Part shown: one piece after another, positions 36,791 to 44,457 of the stretch
Numbering within the stretch: position 1 is the stretch's first letter
Layout: each line of letters begins with the position of its first letter
Assembly: GCF_020386635.1 (NCBI RefSeq)
Contig: NZ_CP081942.1
Location: 5,208,001-5,272,000, forward strand
Reading direction: 5' to 3'
From: Pseudomonas sp. MM211
Lineage (GTDB): Bacteria > Pseudomonadota > Gammaproteobacteria > Pseudomonadales > Pseudomonadaceae
Length of the DNA stretch: 64,000 nucleotides
The notes under the pieces: generated by a model
What the model was told of the DNA's origin: nothing
The model's input: the letters and a program-made list of their open reading frames with translations, nothing else
Databases searched by the model: none
Position numbers and translations under genes: made by a program

Positions 36791-37939
36791 TCAGTCGGCG
36801 GGCTTAGCGGCGTTTGGCCATGGCGTCGATGAAGCGGTCGAACAGCGGGGCGACATCGTTCGACCCGGGCTGGCTTCAGGGTGGCCCTGGAAGCTGAACG
36901 CGTCCTTGTCGGTGCGCTCGATACCTTGCAGGGTGCCGTCGAACAGCGACTTGTGGATCGCCCGCAGGTTGCCCGGCAGAGTTGCTTCGTCCACGGCGAA
37001 CCCGTGGTTCTGACTGGTGATCATCACCACGCCGGTATCCAGATCCTGAACCGGGTGGTTGGCACCGTGGTGGCCGGTGCCCATCTTCACGGTCTTGGCG
37101 CCGGAAGCCAGGGCCAGCAACTGGTGACCGAGGCAGATGCCGAATACCGGAATATCGGTTTCCAGTACGTCCTTGATCGCCTGGATCGCGTAGTCGCAAG
37201 GCTCGGGATCACCCGGGCCGTTGGACAGGAATACGCCGTCAGGGTTGAGTGCCAACACATCCTTGGCCGGTGTCTGCGCAGGCACCACGGTGAGACGGCA
37301 ACCACGCGCGACCAGCATGCGCAGGATGTTCAGCTTAACGCCGTAGTCATAGGCCACGACGTGATAGGGCAGCTCGCTGGCGGCAATTTCCGGATGGCTG
37401 TCATCCTTCAGATCCCACACGCTGGAACGCCACTCATAGCGCTCGGTGCAGCTGACTTCTTTGGCCAGATCCATACCTTTGAGGCCCGGGAAGCCCCGCG
37501 CCAACTCAAGGGCTTTTTCCTCGGTGGCATCAGCACCGACCAGGATGCAGCCGTTCTGCGAACCTTTCTCGCGCAGAATGCGCGTCAGGCGGCGGGTATC
37601 GATACCGGCGATGGCGACAGTGCCGTTTTCCTTGAGGTAATCCTGCAAGGACTGCTTGTTGCGCCAGTTACTGGCGGTCAGCGGCAGGTCACGGATGATC
37701 AGACCAGCCGCCCAAACGCGATTCGACTCGGCGTCTTCTGGGGTGGTACCGGTATTACCGATGTGCGGATAGGTCAGCGTGACAATCTGCTGGGCATAGG
37801 AAGGATCGGTGAGAATTTCCTGATAGCCGGTCATGGCGGTGTTGAACACCACCTCTCCGATAGTCTGGCCATCGGCCCCGATGGCCTCGCCGCGAAAAAT
37901 GCTGCCGTCAGCAAGGGCGAGTATGGCTGGCTTACTCAA
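36791..37939 (-). CDS. carA: Carbamoyl-phosphate synthase small subunit, C-terminus frameshifted
   Basis: Glutaminase subunit supplying ammonia to CarB. TTG start at 37939 ([12 protein letters not shown]) with GGAGG upstream. The class I amidotransferase triad is present: Cys of [11 protein letters not shown], His and Glu of GHPEASPG. Directly after that motif the frame reads [12 protein letters not shown] and ends at 36791 (382 residues). One extra G in the GGG at 36864-36866 would restore [18 protein letters not shown] and the expected stop at 36804, for 378 residues. The normal tail is thus still encoded in the adjacent frame, pointing to a one-base sequencing deletion. Confidence 0.95.
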
Positions 37940-37972
37940 GAAGACCTCCCGTAGATCGTGAAGCGAACGCAG

Positions 37973-38000
37973 ATTGTAAAAAAGCGGGATGACGTGTGAA
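37973..38000 (-). promoter_or_regulatory. Candidate carA promoter with -35 inside a hairpin loop
   Basis: Minus strand: TTCACA (38000-37995), 16-base spacer, TACAAT (37978-37973). The predicted start is about 27 bases upstream of the carA TTG, giving a very short leader. The -35 lies in the loop of the hairpin at 37978-38017. Confidence 0.5.
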
Positions 38001-38017
38001 GGTCATCCCGCTTTTTT
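37978..38017. terminator. 16-bp perfect hairpin with A/T runs, carA upstream region
   Basis: AAAAAAGCGGGATGAC (37978-37993) pairs perfectly with its complement at 38002-38017, forming a bidirectional intrinsic terminator. No gene ends here on either strand: carA and the methyltransferase are divergent. It may be the remnant dapB terminator left when the R-M genes separated dapB from carA, or a functional block isolating carA. Confidence 0.75.
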
Positions 38018-38037
38018 AATTGATTCATTCTGCGCAA

Positions 38038-38057
38038 CTTTAGTGGACACACTAAAG
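38038..38057. promoter_or_regulatory. Inverted repeat, candidate operator of the R-M locus
   Basis: CTTTAGTG, four bases, CACTAAAG: a perfect 8-bp inverted repeat lacking flanking T-runs, so not a terminator. It lies in the divergent carA/methyltransferase interval, about 75 bases before the methyltransferase -35. A DNA-binding protein site is plausible; the methyltransferase itself has an HTH-like N-terminus. Confidence 0.45.
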
Positions 38058-38131
38058 CGGAAAGCCTACAGGAAAACCCGGTTTTTCGAAAGCCATAACC
38101 AGGGAAAACTTGCAAACCGATCCATCACTAA

Positions 38132-38159
38132 TTGACACACCACCCCTCAGCCGTAAAAT
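38132..38159 (+). promoter_or_regulatory. sigma-70 promoter of the cytosine methyltransferase
   Basis: TTGACA (38132-38137), 16-base spacer, TAAAAT (38154-38159). The -35 is perfect consensus. Predicted start near 38166, about 30 bases upstream of the ATG. Confidence 0.75.
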
Positions 38160-38196
38160 TCGGTACTTCCTACAGGTTTCGGCAGGGAAACCCTGA

Positions 38197-39600
38197 ATGA
38201 GTACCTATCTAAGCATTTCGGCCACCGCCGCCGCACTGAAGATCAGCGTACAGCGTGTTAGAACCCTGTGCCGAAATGGCAATCTGGCCGCCCAAAAAAT
38301 TGGCAGCAGCTGGATCATCGACCCACTCAGCGTCACCCACTACGGTTTAAAAACGGCTCATATGCTTGCACATGATCATCCGGCGCAGCAGCGCCAGAGT
38401 GGAAAACCCATCGCCCTGAGTTTCTTTTCCGGTGCCATGGGCCTGGATCTAGGCTTGGAAAAGGCTGGTTTCGATATTCGCCTGGCTTGCGAATCGGACA
38501 AGTACTGCCGCCAGACCATCGCCCTGAACCGCCCGGACACTGCACTGCTCGGCGATATCAATAGCTGCTCCGCAGAACAGGTGCTGGAAGCCGCCGGCAT
38601 CGGACGCGACGACGTCGACGTAATCGTCGGCGACCCACCCTGCCAAGCCTTCAGCACGGCCGGCAAACGCAAGGCGTTCAATGACGACCGCGGCAACGCC
38701 TTTCTCAAATACATCGACCTCGCCCTGGAGATTCGTCCACCACTGATCGTCATCGAGAACGTCCGCGGCCTACTCTCTTGCCCAATGGATCATCGCCCTC
38801 ATGACCAACGCGGCACGGACTTCCCTGATCTTTCACTGGACGAAATGAAAGGAGGCGCACTGAACTTCGTGCTCAGCAAGCTTCGTAATGCGGGCTACGC
38901 CTACTCGTTCAACCTGTACAACTCGGCGAACTTCGGCACCCCACAGGTGCGCGAGCGGGTCATCATCATCTGCTCACGAGACGGGCAAACCGCTCCGTTC
39001 CTGACACCAACCCATAGCGAGGATGGCGCCCTGAACCTGCCCGCCTGGCGCACCGTACGCCAGGCCCTGGAAGGCCTGAGCAATCATGCCCACCTGAATT
39101 TCCCGGAAAAGCGCCTGCGTTATTACCGCCTGCTCAAAGCTGGGCAGAACTGGCGCAACCTGCCAGAGGATCTGCAGCGCGAAGCGATGGGCAAATCCTA
39201 CTTCTCCGGCGGTGGCAAGACCGGCTTTCTACGGCGCCTGGCCTGGGACAAACCCTCGCCTACCCTGGTGACGCATCCGGCGATGCCCGCCACGGATCTG
39301 GCGCACCCACAGGAAGACCGCCCGCTGTCGATCCAGGAGTACAAACGTATTCAGGAATTTCCCGACGACTGGCAACTGGCGGGCCCGCTGATCCAGCAGT
39401 ACAAACAGGTCGGCAATGCTGTGCCGGTGAGCCTCGGCCACGCTGTAGGGGTTCTGCTGCGCGGCCTGCTCGCAGGCGAAGCGCACCCGGCGCCGAGCGC
39501 GTTCAAGTTCTCGCGCTATCAGGCGACCTGCCACGAACAATGGCTGAAAGCCTTCGAGCAGCAACGACGCAAGGCGCAATTGACCCTGGCAATCAGCTAA
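38197..39600 (+). CDS. DNA (cytosine-5) methyltransferase with excisionase-like HTH N-terminus
   Basis: Type II R-M methyltransferase, 467 residues. Residues 1-48 (SISATAAALKISVQRVRTLC...IGSSWIIDP) resemble the excisionase/MerR-like HTH_17 domain. The m5C methyltransferase starts near residue 72: motif I ALSFFSGAMGLDLGLE, motif IV GDPPCQAFSTAGKR with the catalytic Cys, motif VI IVIENVRGLL, motif VIII NFGTPQVRERVIII and motif X QVGNAVPVSLGHAVG; the target recognition region lies between VIII and X. It is convergent with the restriction gene, 12 bases away. The HTH fusion suggests autoregulation, as known for M.SsoII-type enzymes with different HTH domains. Recognition sequence cannot be read from the protein. 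Confidence 0.93.
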   Translation: MSTYLSISATAAALKISVQRVRTLCRNGNLAAQKIGSSWIIDPLSVTHYGLKTAHMLAHDHPAQQRQSGKPIALSFFSGAMGLDLGLEKAGFDIRLACESDKYCRQTIALNRPDTALLGDINSCSAEQVLEAAGIGRDDVDVIVGDPPCQAFSTAGKRKAFNDDRGNAFLKYIDLALEIRPPLIVIENVRGLLSCPMDHRPHDQRGTDFPDLSLDEMKGGALNFVLSKLRNAGYAYSFNLYNSANFGTPQVRERVIIICSRDGQTAPFLTPTHSEDGALNLPAWRTVRQALEGLSNHAHLNFPEKRLRYYRLLKAGQNWRNLPEDLQREAMGKSYFSGGGKTGFLRRLAWDKPSPTLVTHPAMPATDLAHPQEDRPLSIQEYKRIQEFPDDWQLAGPLIQQYKQVGNAVPVSLGHAVGVLLRGLLAGEAHPAPSAFKFSRYQATCHEQWLKAFEQQRRKAQLTLAIS

Positions 39601-39612
39601 AGCTCTGGACGC

Positions 39613-40344
39613 TCAGGCTTCGGAGTTAAAACGCAGCAAGCGCGCCCAATCGATCGCGCCCTGTTCGTCACAGAACTCCAGGGTGAACTCGCGGGTGAAC
39701 TTGTTAATCATCTGCCCGTAGCTCTCGGCAAACTCGTCGTTGCGCTCACGGGCCTTGAAGCCAAGCGGCTCGATCAGCTCCAGGTAAAGATCCTCATCAC
39801 CTGAAATGAACGCCCAGAAACGCTGACCGCAATATTTGAAATAGCTGCCTTTGTCGGGATTGTTGTCGCGCCCATAGCAACAGCCATTGACCGCAACCAC
39901 CTGCAGCCCCGAATTACCGGTACGCAGGGTGCGCTGGGCGGTGAGAAAATTACTTTTCATCTGACCGATCTGCGAGCTATTACCCCAGTTCGGCCCTGAC
40001 TTGATCGCAACGATGTAACGCAAGCCCTCCTTATCGAATTCCAGATCCACTCCGGTGATACCGGACTTCCAACCCCCATAGACCTGAGCATTGATAAAGA
40101 TCGCCAATCCTTCCAACCAATCGCCGAACAAGGTTTCTTCGTTGGAGGAAATATGCGCGTCGATGATCCCGCGAATGATCTGCTCGGCCGTGAGGACGTG
40201 CTTGGCGCGGTACATATAAGGGTTCTTACGCTTGAGCACATCTTTGAGCTTGAGCCGCCCAAGGCTGGCAATACGCTTCTGGTGAAAGGCACCAATATTC
40301 AGCTCGACGTAACGCGCCACATCATCGAGATTCAACGGATTCAT
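39613..40344 (-). CDS. Type II restriction endonuclease, PmeII/EcoO109I-like
   Basis: 243 residues from ATG 40344, which has AAGGA nine bases upstream; an ATG at 40353 would add three residues but overlaps that site. The central block GVDLEFDKEGLRYIVAIKSGPNWGNSSQ, with an Asp and an xIK pair, resembles the PD-(D/E)xK core of the EcoO109I group, to which I assign it from memory of that SGPNWGN motif. Tail-to-tail with the methyltransferase, and in the same direction as dapB, 70 bases downstream of it. With no strong own promoter seen, it may be read from the dnaK-dnaJ-dapB side. Family assignment moderate, restriction role likely from context. Confidence 0.8.
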   Translation of the reverse strand: MNPLNLDDVARYVELNIGAFHQKRIASLGRLKLKDVLKRKNPYMYRAKHVLTAEQIIRGIIDAHISSNEETLFGDWLEGLAIFINAQVYGGWKSGITGVDLEFDKEGLRYIVAIKSGPNWGNSSQIGQMKSNFLTAQRTLRTGNSGLQVVAVNGCCYGRDNNPDKGSYFKYCGQRFWAFISGDEDLYLELIEPLGFKARERNDEFAESYGQMINKFTREFTLEFCDEQGAIDWARLLRFNSEA

Positions 40345-40381
40345 CGCCAACATCCTTATTCACAAGGCTTGCAGATGAAGC

Positions 40382-40406
40382 CGGATGAGGCCAGTGACCT
40401 CATCCG
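40382..40406 (-). terminator. Weak hairpin just after dapB
   Basis: CGGATGAGG (40382-40390) pairs with CCTCATCCG (40398-40406), nine perfect base pairs, 9 bases beyond the dapB stop. On the minus strand no T-run follows, so termination should be inefficient and transcription into the restriction gene is possible. Confidence 0.5.
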
Positions 40407-40414
40407 CACTACGA

Positions 40415-42411
<1,997 letters not shown>

Positions 42412-42534
42412 GGGTTTCTAACACTCTCAAAATTCGTACCGTCCAGACACGCCAACGCGGGAGCAAGCCCCCGCGCGGCGGATCGCCCTGGCACACAGCT
42501 GTGCGACAGGGCGCAAACACAGGCAAGCCGGGGC

Positions 42535-44457
42535 TTACTTGTTGTCCTTGACTTCCTCGAACTCGGCGTCGACCACGTCGTCCGCAGAGCCCTTGGTTTC
42601 ACCCGCATCCGCCGCCGCACCGGCAGCACCTGGCTGCGGCTGTTCGGCATACATTTTCTGCGCCAGCGGCGTGGTCGCTTCGGACAGGGCATTCATCTTC
42701 GCTTCGATGGCTGCCTTGTCGTCGCCACGTACGGCAACTTCCAATTCACCCAACGCAGCTTCGATGGCCGCTTTCTCGTCCGCAGTGGCCTTGTCGCCAG
42801 CTTCGGTGAGCATCTTGCGGGTCGCATGAACCAGCTGATCGCCCTGGTTACGGGCAGTGGCCAGTTCTTCGAACTTGCGGTCTTCCTCGGCGTTGGCCTC
42901 GGCGTCACGTACCATGCGCTCGATCTCGTCATCGGAAAGGCCGGAGTTGGCCTTGATCACGATGGACTGGGTCTTGCCGGTTGCCTTGTCCTTCGCGCCG
43001 ACGTGCAGGATGCCGTTGGCGTCGATGTCGAAGGTCACTTCGATCTGCGGCACGCCACGCGGAGCTGGCGGGATCTCGGCCAGGTCGAACTTGCCCAGGG
43101 ACTTGTTCTGACCGGCTTGCTTGCGCTCACCCTGCAGCACATGGATGGTCACAGCGCCCTGGTTGTCGTCCGCGGTGGAGAACACCTGCGACTTCTTGGT
43201 CGGGATGGTGGTGTTCTTGTCGATCAGCGCAGTCATCACGCCACCCATGGTTTCGATACCCAGGGTCAGCGGCGAAACGTCGAGCAGCAGTACGTCCTTG
43301 ACGTCACCAGCCAGAACCGCACCTTGAATGGCAGCGCCCATGGCAACGGCTTCGTCCGGGTTGACGTCCTTGCGTGCTTCTTTGCCGAAGAACTCGGTCA
43401 CCAGCTTCTGCACCAGTGGCATACGGGTCTGACCACCGACCAGGATCACGTCGTTGATCGCACCAATATCGATACCGGCATCTTTCAGCGCAATGCGGCA
43501 AGGCTCGATGGTGCGCTGCACCAGATCCTCGACCAGCGATTCCAGCTTGGCGCGGGAGATCTTCACGTTCAGGTGCTTCGGACCGGTGGCGTCTGCAGTG
43601 ATGTACGGCAGGTTGACGTCGGTCTGCTGGCTCGAGGACAGCTCGATTTTAGCCTTCTCGGCAGCTTCCTTGAGGCGCTGCATAGCCAGCGGATCGCCCT
43701 TGAGGCTCATACCGCTTTCTTTCTTGAATTCGTCGACGAGGTAGTCGATCAGACGGATATCGAAGTCCTCACCACCGAGGAACGTATCGCCATTGGTAGC
43801 CAACACTTCGAACTGGTGCTCACCGTCGACTTCAGCGATCTCGATCACCGACACGTCGAAAGTACCGCCGCCCAGGTCATAAACGATCACGGTGTGATCG
43901 CCCTTGGCCTTGTCCATGCCATAGGCCAGCGCAGCCGCGGTCGGCTCGTTGATGATGCGCTTGACGTCCAGACCAGCGATGCGACCGGCATCCTTGGTGG
44001 CCTGACGCTGGCTGTCGTTGAAGTAAGCCGGAACGGTGATCACCGCTTCGGTGACTGCTTCGCCGAGATAGTCTTCGGCGGTCTTCTTCATCTTCTTGAG
44101 AATTTCAGCCGAGATCTGCGGCGGCGCCATTTTCTGGCCGTTGACTTCGACCCAAGCATCGCCGTTATCAGCCTTGGCGATCTTGTACGGCACCATCTGA
44201 ATGTCTTTCTGCACGACTTCTTCGTCGAAGCGACGACCGATCAGACGCTTCACCGCATACAAGGTGTTGTGCGGATTGGTCACAGCCTGACGCTTGGCCG
44301 ACTGGCCGACCAGAATCTCGCCATCGTTGGCGTAAGCGATGATCGACGGCGTGGTGCGCGCGCCTTCGGCGTTTTCGATGACTTTGACTTTGCCATTTTC
44401 AAGAATGGAGACGCAGGAGTTGGTGATCCCCAGGTCGATACCAATAATTTTGCCCAT
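42535..44457 (-). CDS. dnaK: DnaK (Hsp70) chaperone
   Basis: ATP-dependent protein folding chaperone. 640 residues: nucleotide-binding domain to about 385, substrate-binding domain, helical lid and an Ala/Gly/Glu tail ending in EEVKDNK. Family signatures [13 protein letters not shown] and [13 protein letters not shown] are intact. The phosphate-1 motif reads [10 protein letters not shown]: Ile stands at position 11, where E. coli DnaK and nearly all Hsp70s have Thr (GTTNS). The codon is ATC, so one substitution from ACC. Transcribed with grpE upstream and dnaJ downstream. Confidence 0.98.

Follow-up and report, generated by a model that had tools for sequence, protein, structure and literature searches.

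The methyltransferase and endonuclease genes between dapB and carA

The window, which is the whole 64,000-nucleotide stretch of Pseudomonas sp. MM211 DNA analyzed here, contains a type II restriction-modification pair between dapB and carA, in which a methyltransferase gene (M, plus strand) and an endonuclease gene (R, minus strand) stand tail-to-tail, separated by 12 bp. M (38197-39600) encodes an HTH_17-fused cytosine-5 methyltransferase of 467 aa, as identified with Pfam, NCBIfam, PADLOC, and an AlphaFold model, and R (39613-40344 from its conserved start) encodes a PmeII-family endonuclease of 243 aa with the EcoO109I fold. The upstream neighbor of R and its possible source of read-through is dapB (40415-41218, minus strand), which was assigned from the ORF list and by identity to relatives; in the same list dapB ends at 40415 and carA, also on the minus strand, starts at 37939. 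The ORFs and the Pfam matches agree with the tail-to-tail pair described in the first-pass annotation, and with a methyltransferase adjoining an endonuclease of a known family the pair was classed as a type II system. The start of the feature had been placed at 38038, but this position falls in the carA leader; comparison by eye with an empty relative (L094) put the insert proper at about 38100-40414. The leader (37978-38057, minus strand) comprises a hairpin at 38038-38057 and a terminator at 37978-38018, was seen in the Pseudomonas loci inspected, both empty and occupied, and is retained beside the insertion. It is overlapped by a match to the Rfam sRNA P31 at 37939-38011 on the plus strand (59.6 bits, gathering threshold 40), and the kind of leader found on the strand opposite P31 is called P32 in the excerpted P. 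syringae work (PMC4997734).

In the ORF list R extends over 39613-40353 (246 aa). Since residue 4 of that ORF is a methionine that was invariant in an alignment of 30 sequences and is preceded by AAGGA, translation probably starts at 40344. Apart from M and R, no free-standing ORF of at least 60 aa is listed in the dapB-carA interval, so a separate C gene is absent, as had been proposed, and the C gene upstream of R that defines a C-protein-controlled system was not found there.

The Pfam search of M returned DNA_methylase (PF00145, 9.5e-55, residues 74-418) and, at the N-terminus, HTH_17 (2e-5, residues 4-42, 38206-38322, plus strand), the latter with 25.2 bits, 1.8 under the curated cut-off of 27. 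The AlphaFold model has a helix-helix-beta hairpin-helix pattern at residues 7-53, with a block pLDDT of 91-95 from residue 11, and the PADLOC model aligns with M from residue 3 onward. The PCQ and ENV motifs, by which M was recognized as an m5C methyltransferase, were invariant in 40 sequences. Together, the sub-threshold HTH_17 match and the helix pattern bear out the proposal of an HTH fused to a complete m5C methyltransferase, and an N-terminal DNA-binding HTH is what regulatory methyltransferases of the SsoII/EcoRII type carry. The fusion is usual within the family and not a peculiarity, because HTH_17 and DNA_methylase occurred together in 107 of the 120 relatives listed among 6766 found (counted by hand). 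A recent carrier was looked for and the idea set aside, as the matches consisted of ten plasmids at 43-58% identity and, in a search that finds close relatives only, one viral contig with a relative at 69%. A second, distant m5C methyltransferase-like gene lies elsewhere in the genome (G000:C1:123912-124292, L002; 38% identity over 127 residues).

R matched RE_EcoO109I (PF14511) at 4.6e-89, the family expected from the earlier reading, and both its sequence profile and its overall fold are those of EcoO109I; a phmmer search against PDB sequences returned nothing relevant, although the profile and fold searches did match. No PADLOC or NCBIfam model was found for R, and several relatives with 77-79% identity are named 'PmeII family type II restriction endonuclease' by NCBI.

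EcoO109I itself has the specificity RGGNCCY. The specificity of the present pair is very probably GGWCC, judging by site avoidance. The window has 8 GGWCC sites against 93.8 expected under a Markov model and 147 GGSCC sites against 190.5, and this strong avoidance of GGWCC, not of GGSCC, speaks against a GGN reading of the site. Another 20 kb of the same genome contain a single GGWCC against 25 expected. The observed/expected ratio was 0.09-0.48 in nine occupied Pseudomonas genomes, the highest value being that of a pair-bearing genome with mild depletion only (G1211, 0.48), and had a median of 0.60 around 57 empty intervals (20 kb each), as measured on stretches of 12.7-20 kb (Mann-Whitney p 1.6e-5, a value that overstates the evidence because the genomes are related); GGSCC also differed slightly between the two groups (p 0.04). 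The ratio was 0.23 in G270 and 0.37 in Vreelandella arcis, both from small counts, and little depletion was seen in two carriers of SinI-type pairs (G322, 0.81, and G271, 0.79; 8 of about 10 sites each). Two genomes with empty dapB-carA intervals, G113 (L121/L176) and G008 (L122/L177), were depleted of GGWCC like the carriers (0.13-0.23), which would fit traces of a GGWCC system recently lost. In the excerpts of the methylation study, P. mendocina is methylated at GGWCC and PmeII is one of the enzymes listed as having a site identical to the methylated motif (PMC8112702). The likeness to PmeII consists of the family name of R, the GGWCC depletion here, and the GGWCC methylation there (PMC8112702), the comparison being one of name and description rather than of the sequence of PmeII itself.

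Promoter and predicted operator of the methyltransferase gene

Upstream of M lies the promoter TTGACA-N16-TAAAAT (38132-38159, plus strand), which agrees with the consensus at 11 of 12 positions and whose TTGAC is invariant in 12 aligned loci; M would be expressed from this sigma-70-type promoter of its own. The DNA between the conserved blocks in the -35/-10 spacer is not conserved. The promoter is followed by a conserved nested palindrome at 38162-38205, GGTACT-N8-GTTTC-N6-GAAAC-N8-AGTACC (general form GGTACY-N8-GTTTC-N6-GAAAC-N8-RGTACC), which spans the start-site region, the ribosome site, and codons 1-3 of M, its last arm being codons 2 and 3. In the 17 M genes with at least 66% identity, some of which are nearly identical (e.g. 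L009, L010, L112) and so not all independent, GGTAC was present in every case, TTTCG in 16, and AGT ACC as codons 2-3 in 16, the exception being G193 with CGT ACC. Among the remaining serine codons of these genes AGT accounts for 0-41% (at most 13% in 14 genes), and in seven genes ACC accounts for just 6-22% of the remaining threonine codons. In two more distant M genes from plasmids (57 and 53% identity), a palindrome of their own with an identical inner left half-site occupies this position.

The nested form was matched at 9 or more of 11 positions in 12 of the 15 loci tested, where 0-6 of 300 mononucleotide shuffles did as well; it is not universal, because the inner right arm is degenerate in the other three (L163, L170, L185). 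The full palindrome, searched with up to 3 mismatches, has a single match in the 5.28-Mb genome, and its inner core alone occurs at five places. Exact copies of GTTTC-N6-GAAAC in the fetched loci (1.65 Mb, partly overlapping) stand at M starts, apart from one unrelated match in L147, and none was found upstream of R. A palindromic site at the gene's own promoter, a further mark of SsoII/EcoRII-type regulation, is thus present at 38162-38205, and it is predicted to be the operator bound by the winged helix of M. The conservation of the nested palindrome over the promoter and codons 1-3 gives strong, if indirect, support to autorepression of M, and with it to the earlier suggestion that the fusion lets the enzyme regulate its own promoter. 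The N-terminal domain, probably as one dimer or two, would bind the palindrome and cover the start site, the ribosome site, and the first codons, by which the gene would be shut off.

The ribosome site and start codon also lie between the arms, so that the palindrome could instead act as RNA, a 5' stem of the M mRNA hiding the ribosome site and tuning M at translation, with the HTH binding elsewhere or only helping methylation. As RNA, the 44 nt do fold more stably than shuffles (z -2.4) with both arm pairs formed. The left arm, however, starts 3 nt past the -10 box, and part of it is therefore probably untranscribed; when the RNA was taken to begin at 38165, stability fell to z -1.5 and the GGTAC arm lost the pairing that it has in the palindrome. 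A leader stretch lacking the right outer arm gave z -0.6, and the leader stretches of L012, L160, and L162, in which the right arm is wholly or partly cut off, gave -1.8, -0.2, and -1.0. What is conserved is the bases themselves, beyond mere pairing, and control by RNA is accordingly considered unlikely.

Several m5C methyltransferases, namely M.SsoII/Ecl18kI and M.EcoRII, are described in the excerpted literature as repressing their own genes (PMC3695355; PMC3978073; PMC12707154). As far as those excerpts go, these enzymes resemble M in the HTH fusion and the predicted feedback, and they differ from it in the following respects. The M.SsoII domain has been modeled on the phage 434 repressor, whereas that of M is an HTH_17 winged helix; in Ecl18kI the promoters of M and R overlap with the site between them, whereas R is convergent here and has no copy of the site; and only the present palindrome extends into codons 2-3 of M. 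Within the titles and abstract starts of open-licence PMC articles, neither HTH_17-type control of m5C methyltransferases nor a SinI-type operator was found. Self-repressing m5C methyltransferases are already known; the control site described here, the swapped partners, and the recurring address (the last two described below) look new.

Transcription of the endonuclease gene

In the R-bearing loci that were read, R is the next gene after dapB, at a distance of 70 bp here (40345-40414, minus strand) and of some 25 bp in V. arcis. A scan of the minus strand over 40344-42600 found no sigma-70-like site (at least 9 of 12 matches) for R, which is weak evidence because promoters of Pseudomonas often depart from that consensus, and the strong independent promoter that would have told against the first-pass annotation did not appear in consensus form. 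The hairpin reported between dapB and R was confirmed at about 40382-40406, with an 11-bp stem and no T-run, but its description as weak had to be corrected, since folding of the 81 nt gave z -3.3; this stem-loop could reduce read-through. Given the lack of a site copy or a recognizable promoter, R would most likely be fed by read-through of the dapB transcript, which is plausible from the gene order. The terminator scan found no terminator between M and R and, with 12 bp between the convergent ends, each transcript can enter the other gene antisense. Transcription of M would thus run antisense into R, keeping R expression low during the synthesis of M and freeing it once M represses itself. 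In the excerpted review, antisense control has a precedent in EcoRI and Eco29kI (PMC12707154).

Two other ways of driving R were weighed against dapB read-through. One is a promoter of its own within the last part of dapB or the 70 bp that follow it, independent of the dapB transcript, which we regard as a real possibility, though short of an even chance. Stand-alone promoters are usual for restriction endonucleases, those of Pseudomonas can be far off consensus, and a stem-loop follows dapB; on the other side are the failure to find a consensus site for R and the space of only about 25 bp left between dapB and R in V. arcis. The coupling of restriction to heat shock that had been proposed, by read-through along grpE-dnaK-dnaJ-dapB, agrees with gene order and direction in the window, where no T-run terminator was found between dnaJ and dapB or between dapB and R. 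It seems quite improbable nonetheless, since a very stable hairpin of 86 nt separates dnaJ from dapB (41205-41290, minus strand; -43.9 kcal/mol, z -7.2, no T-run). In the three Halomonadaceae-type loci (Vreelandella and G270), moreover, dnaJ lies 1.4-4.7 kb from dapB, yet the gene behind dapB is again R or M; what the loci have in common is therefore dapB and not the chaperones.

Parentage and chromosomal address of the pair

Relatives of R found elsewhere are mostly accompanied by a different kind of methyltransferase. Among the best 80 of 145 R-relative loci, 68 have their best amino-methyltransferase (PF01555) match on the strand of R and at most 65 nt upstream, and four more have it elsewhere in the locus, two of these with a second such match at most 29 nt upstream of R; a single enzyme (L022) served as tblastn query for these matches, and Pfam was searched with this one alone. 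Five of the 80 have an HTH-fused m5C enzyme in convergent order, and the remaining three (L013, L043, L083) have neither kind, with a contig end less than 200 nt from R. PF14511 systems of other phyla, whose R is 66-73% identical to that of the window, differ from it in that R follows an N6_N4-type amino-methyltransferase. The relatives of M, on their side, have other partners: of six fetched loci without dapB or carA nearby, four face RE_SinI and one RE_TdeIII (the sixth is in G1006). The SinI-type systems share with the window the M family (67-71% identity, four loci), the tail-to-tail order, and the M palindrome, whereas their R belongs to an unrelated family (PF09570 against PF14511 here). 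A plasmid M beside an annotated SinI-family gene is arranged head to head instead of tail to tail. Since R relatives mostly follow amino-methyltransferases and other M relatives face SinI or TdeIII nucleases, the window pair looks like a chimera of R and M from different arrangements, in the tail-to-tail order usual for M on chromosomes.

At an E-value of 1e-100, M was found in 7 of 383 genomes of the genus, its own included, always between dapB and carA, and the same address was found in P. daroniae, P. oleovorans, V. arcis, and G270, so that 11 of 11 placeable loci of the close M clade, in Pseudomonas and Halomonadaceae, lie there. V. hamiltonii has dapB followed by R and then the contig end. 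G270 and V. arcis share 94-95% identity in dapB and carA. In a selected set of 60 dapB-carA intervals, 57 were empty, and the three occupied ones were carriers known beforehand; in the empty intervals the dapB and carA matches are 189-382 bp apart, too close for cargo of similar size. Comparison of the interval in relatives thus agrees with the rare insertion that had been suspected, as do the 376 genomes without M at this threshold.

Across the two groups, Pseudomonas and Vreelandella/G270, identity is 70-74% for M and only 59-64% for dapB, whereas between Pseudomonas lineages the order is reversed (M 77-84%, dapB 83-90%), and on this account lateral movement of M to the address is favored. 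R points the same way, its identity between sp1636 and other Pseudomonas (77-79%) being about that between V. arcis and Pseudomonas (76-78%). These figures weigh against a single old insertion that was inherited vertically and lost many times, and such a history, although possible, appears doubtful. In its favor, the rows at this address group together in the M tree, in a single clade of 41 rows (SH-aLRT 100), and the site was read for eight rows of that clade, the window included; the tree is a quick one with two very long plasmid branches, and no trust should be placed in its outer order. With flanks only about 60% identical, homologous recombination can hardly have been the guide for lateral movement.

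The reading that we consider moderately probable as a whole is a GGWCC system of mixed parentage, in which M represses itself through the palindrome while R depends on dapB read-through and antisense timing. A restriction system entering a new cell must methylate before cutting, and a methyltransferase with its own repressor domain and an operator kept by codon constraint would be a compact solution of this kind. Because R has no such site, both the antisense timing and the read-through from the host can be tested directly. As a more tentative extension, which may well not hold, M could be a portable, self-timing module that joins at least three endonuclease families, prefers the dapB slot, and times R by antisense. 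With the operator partly in the first codons, promoter, operator, and gene would move as one unit. If so, an M module could be joined tail-to-tail with PmeII, SinI, and TdeIII endonucleases, R would be timed by antisense transcription without any promoter element of its own, and a host biosynthetic transcript would drive restriction in two bacterial families.

M stands without R at the locus in G193, G1299, and G270, and the dapB-carA address, with some loci lacking R, offers natural replicates of the gain and decay of a defense system. In G1299 and G270, a search for remnants of R gave chance-level matches only. The dapB-M gap of G193 (L106/L187) has a 14-residue match to the C-terminus of R, correctly placed and oriented (E 0.011, a weak value in a search against only three short gaps), which hints at deletion of R. 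Directly before the M promoter in L160 and L164 stands GTTAGGGC, which resembles an integron attC core, and SinI-type pairs may therefore travel as cassettes.
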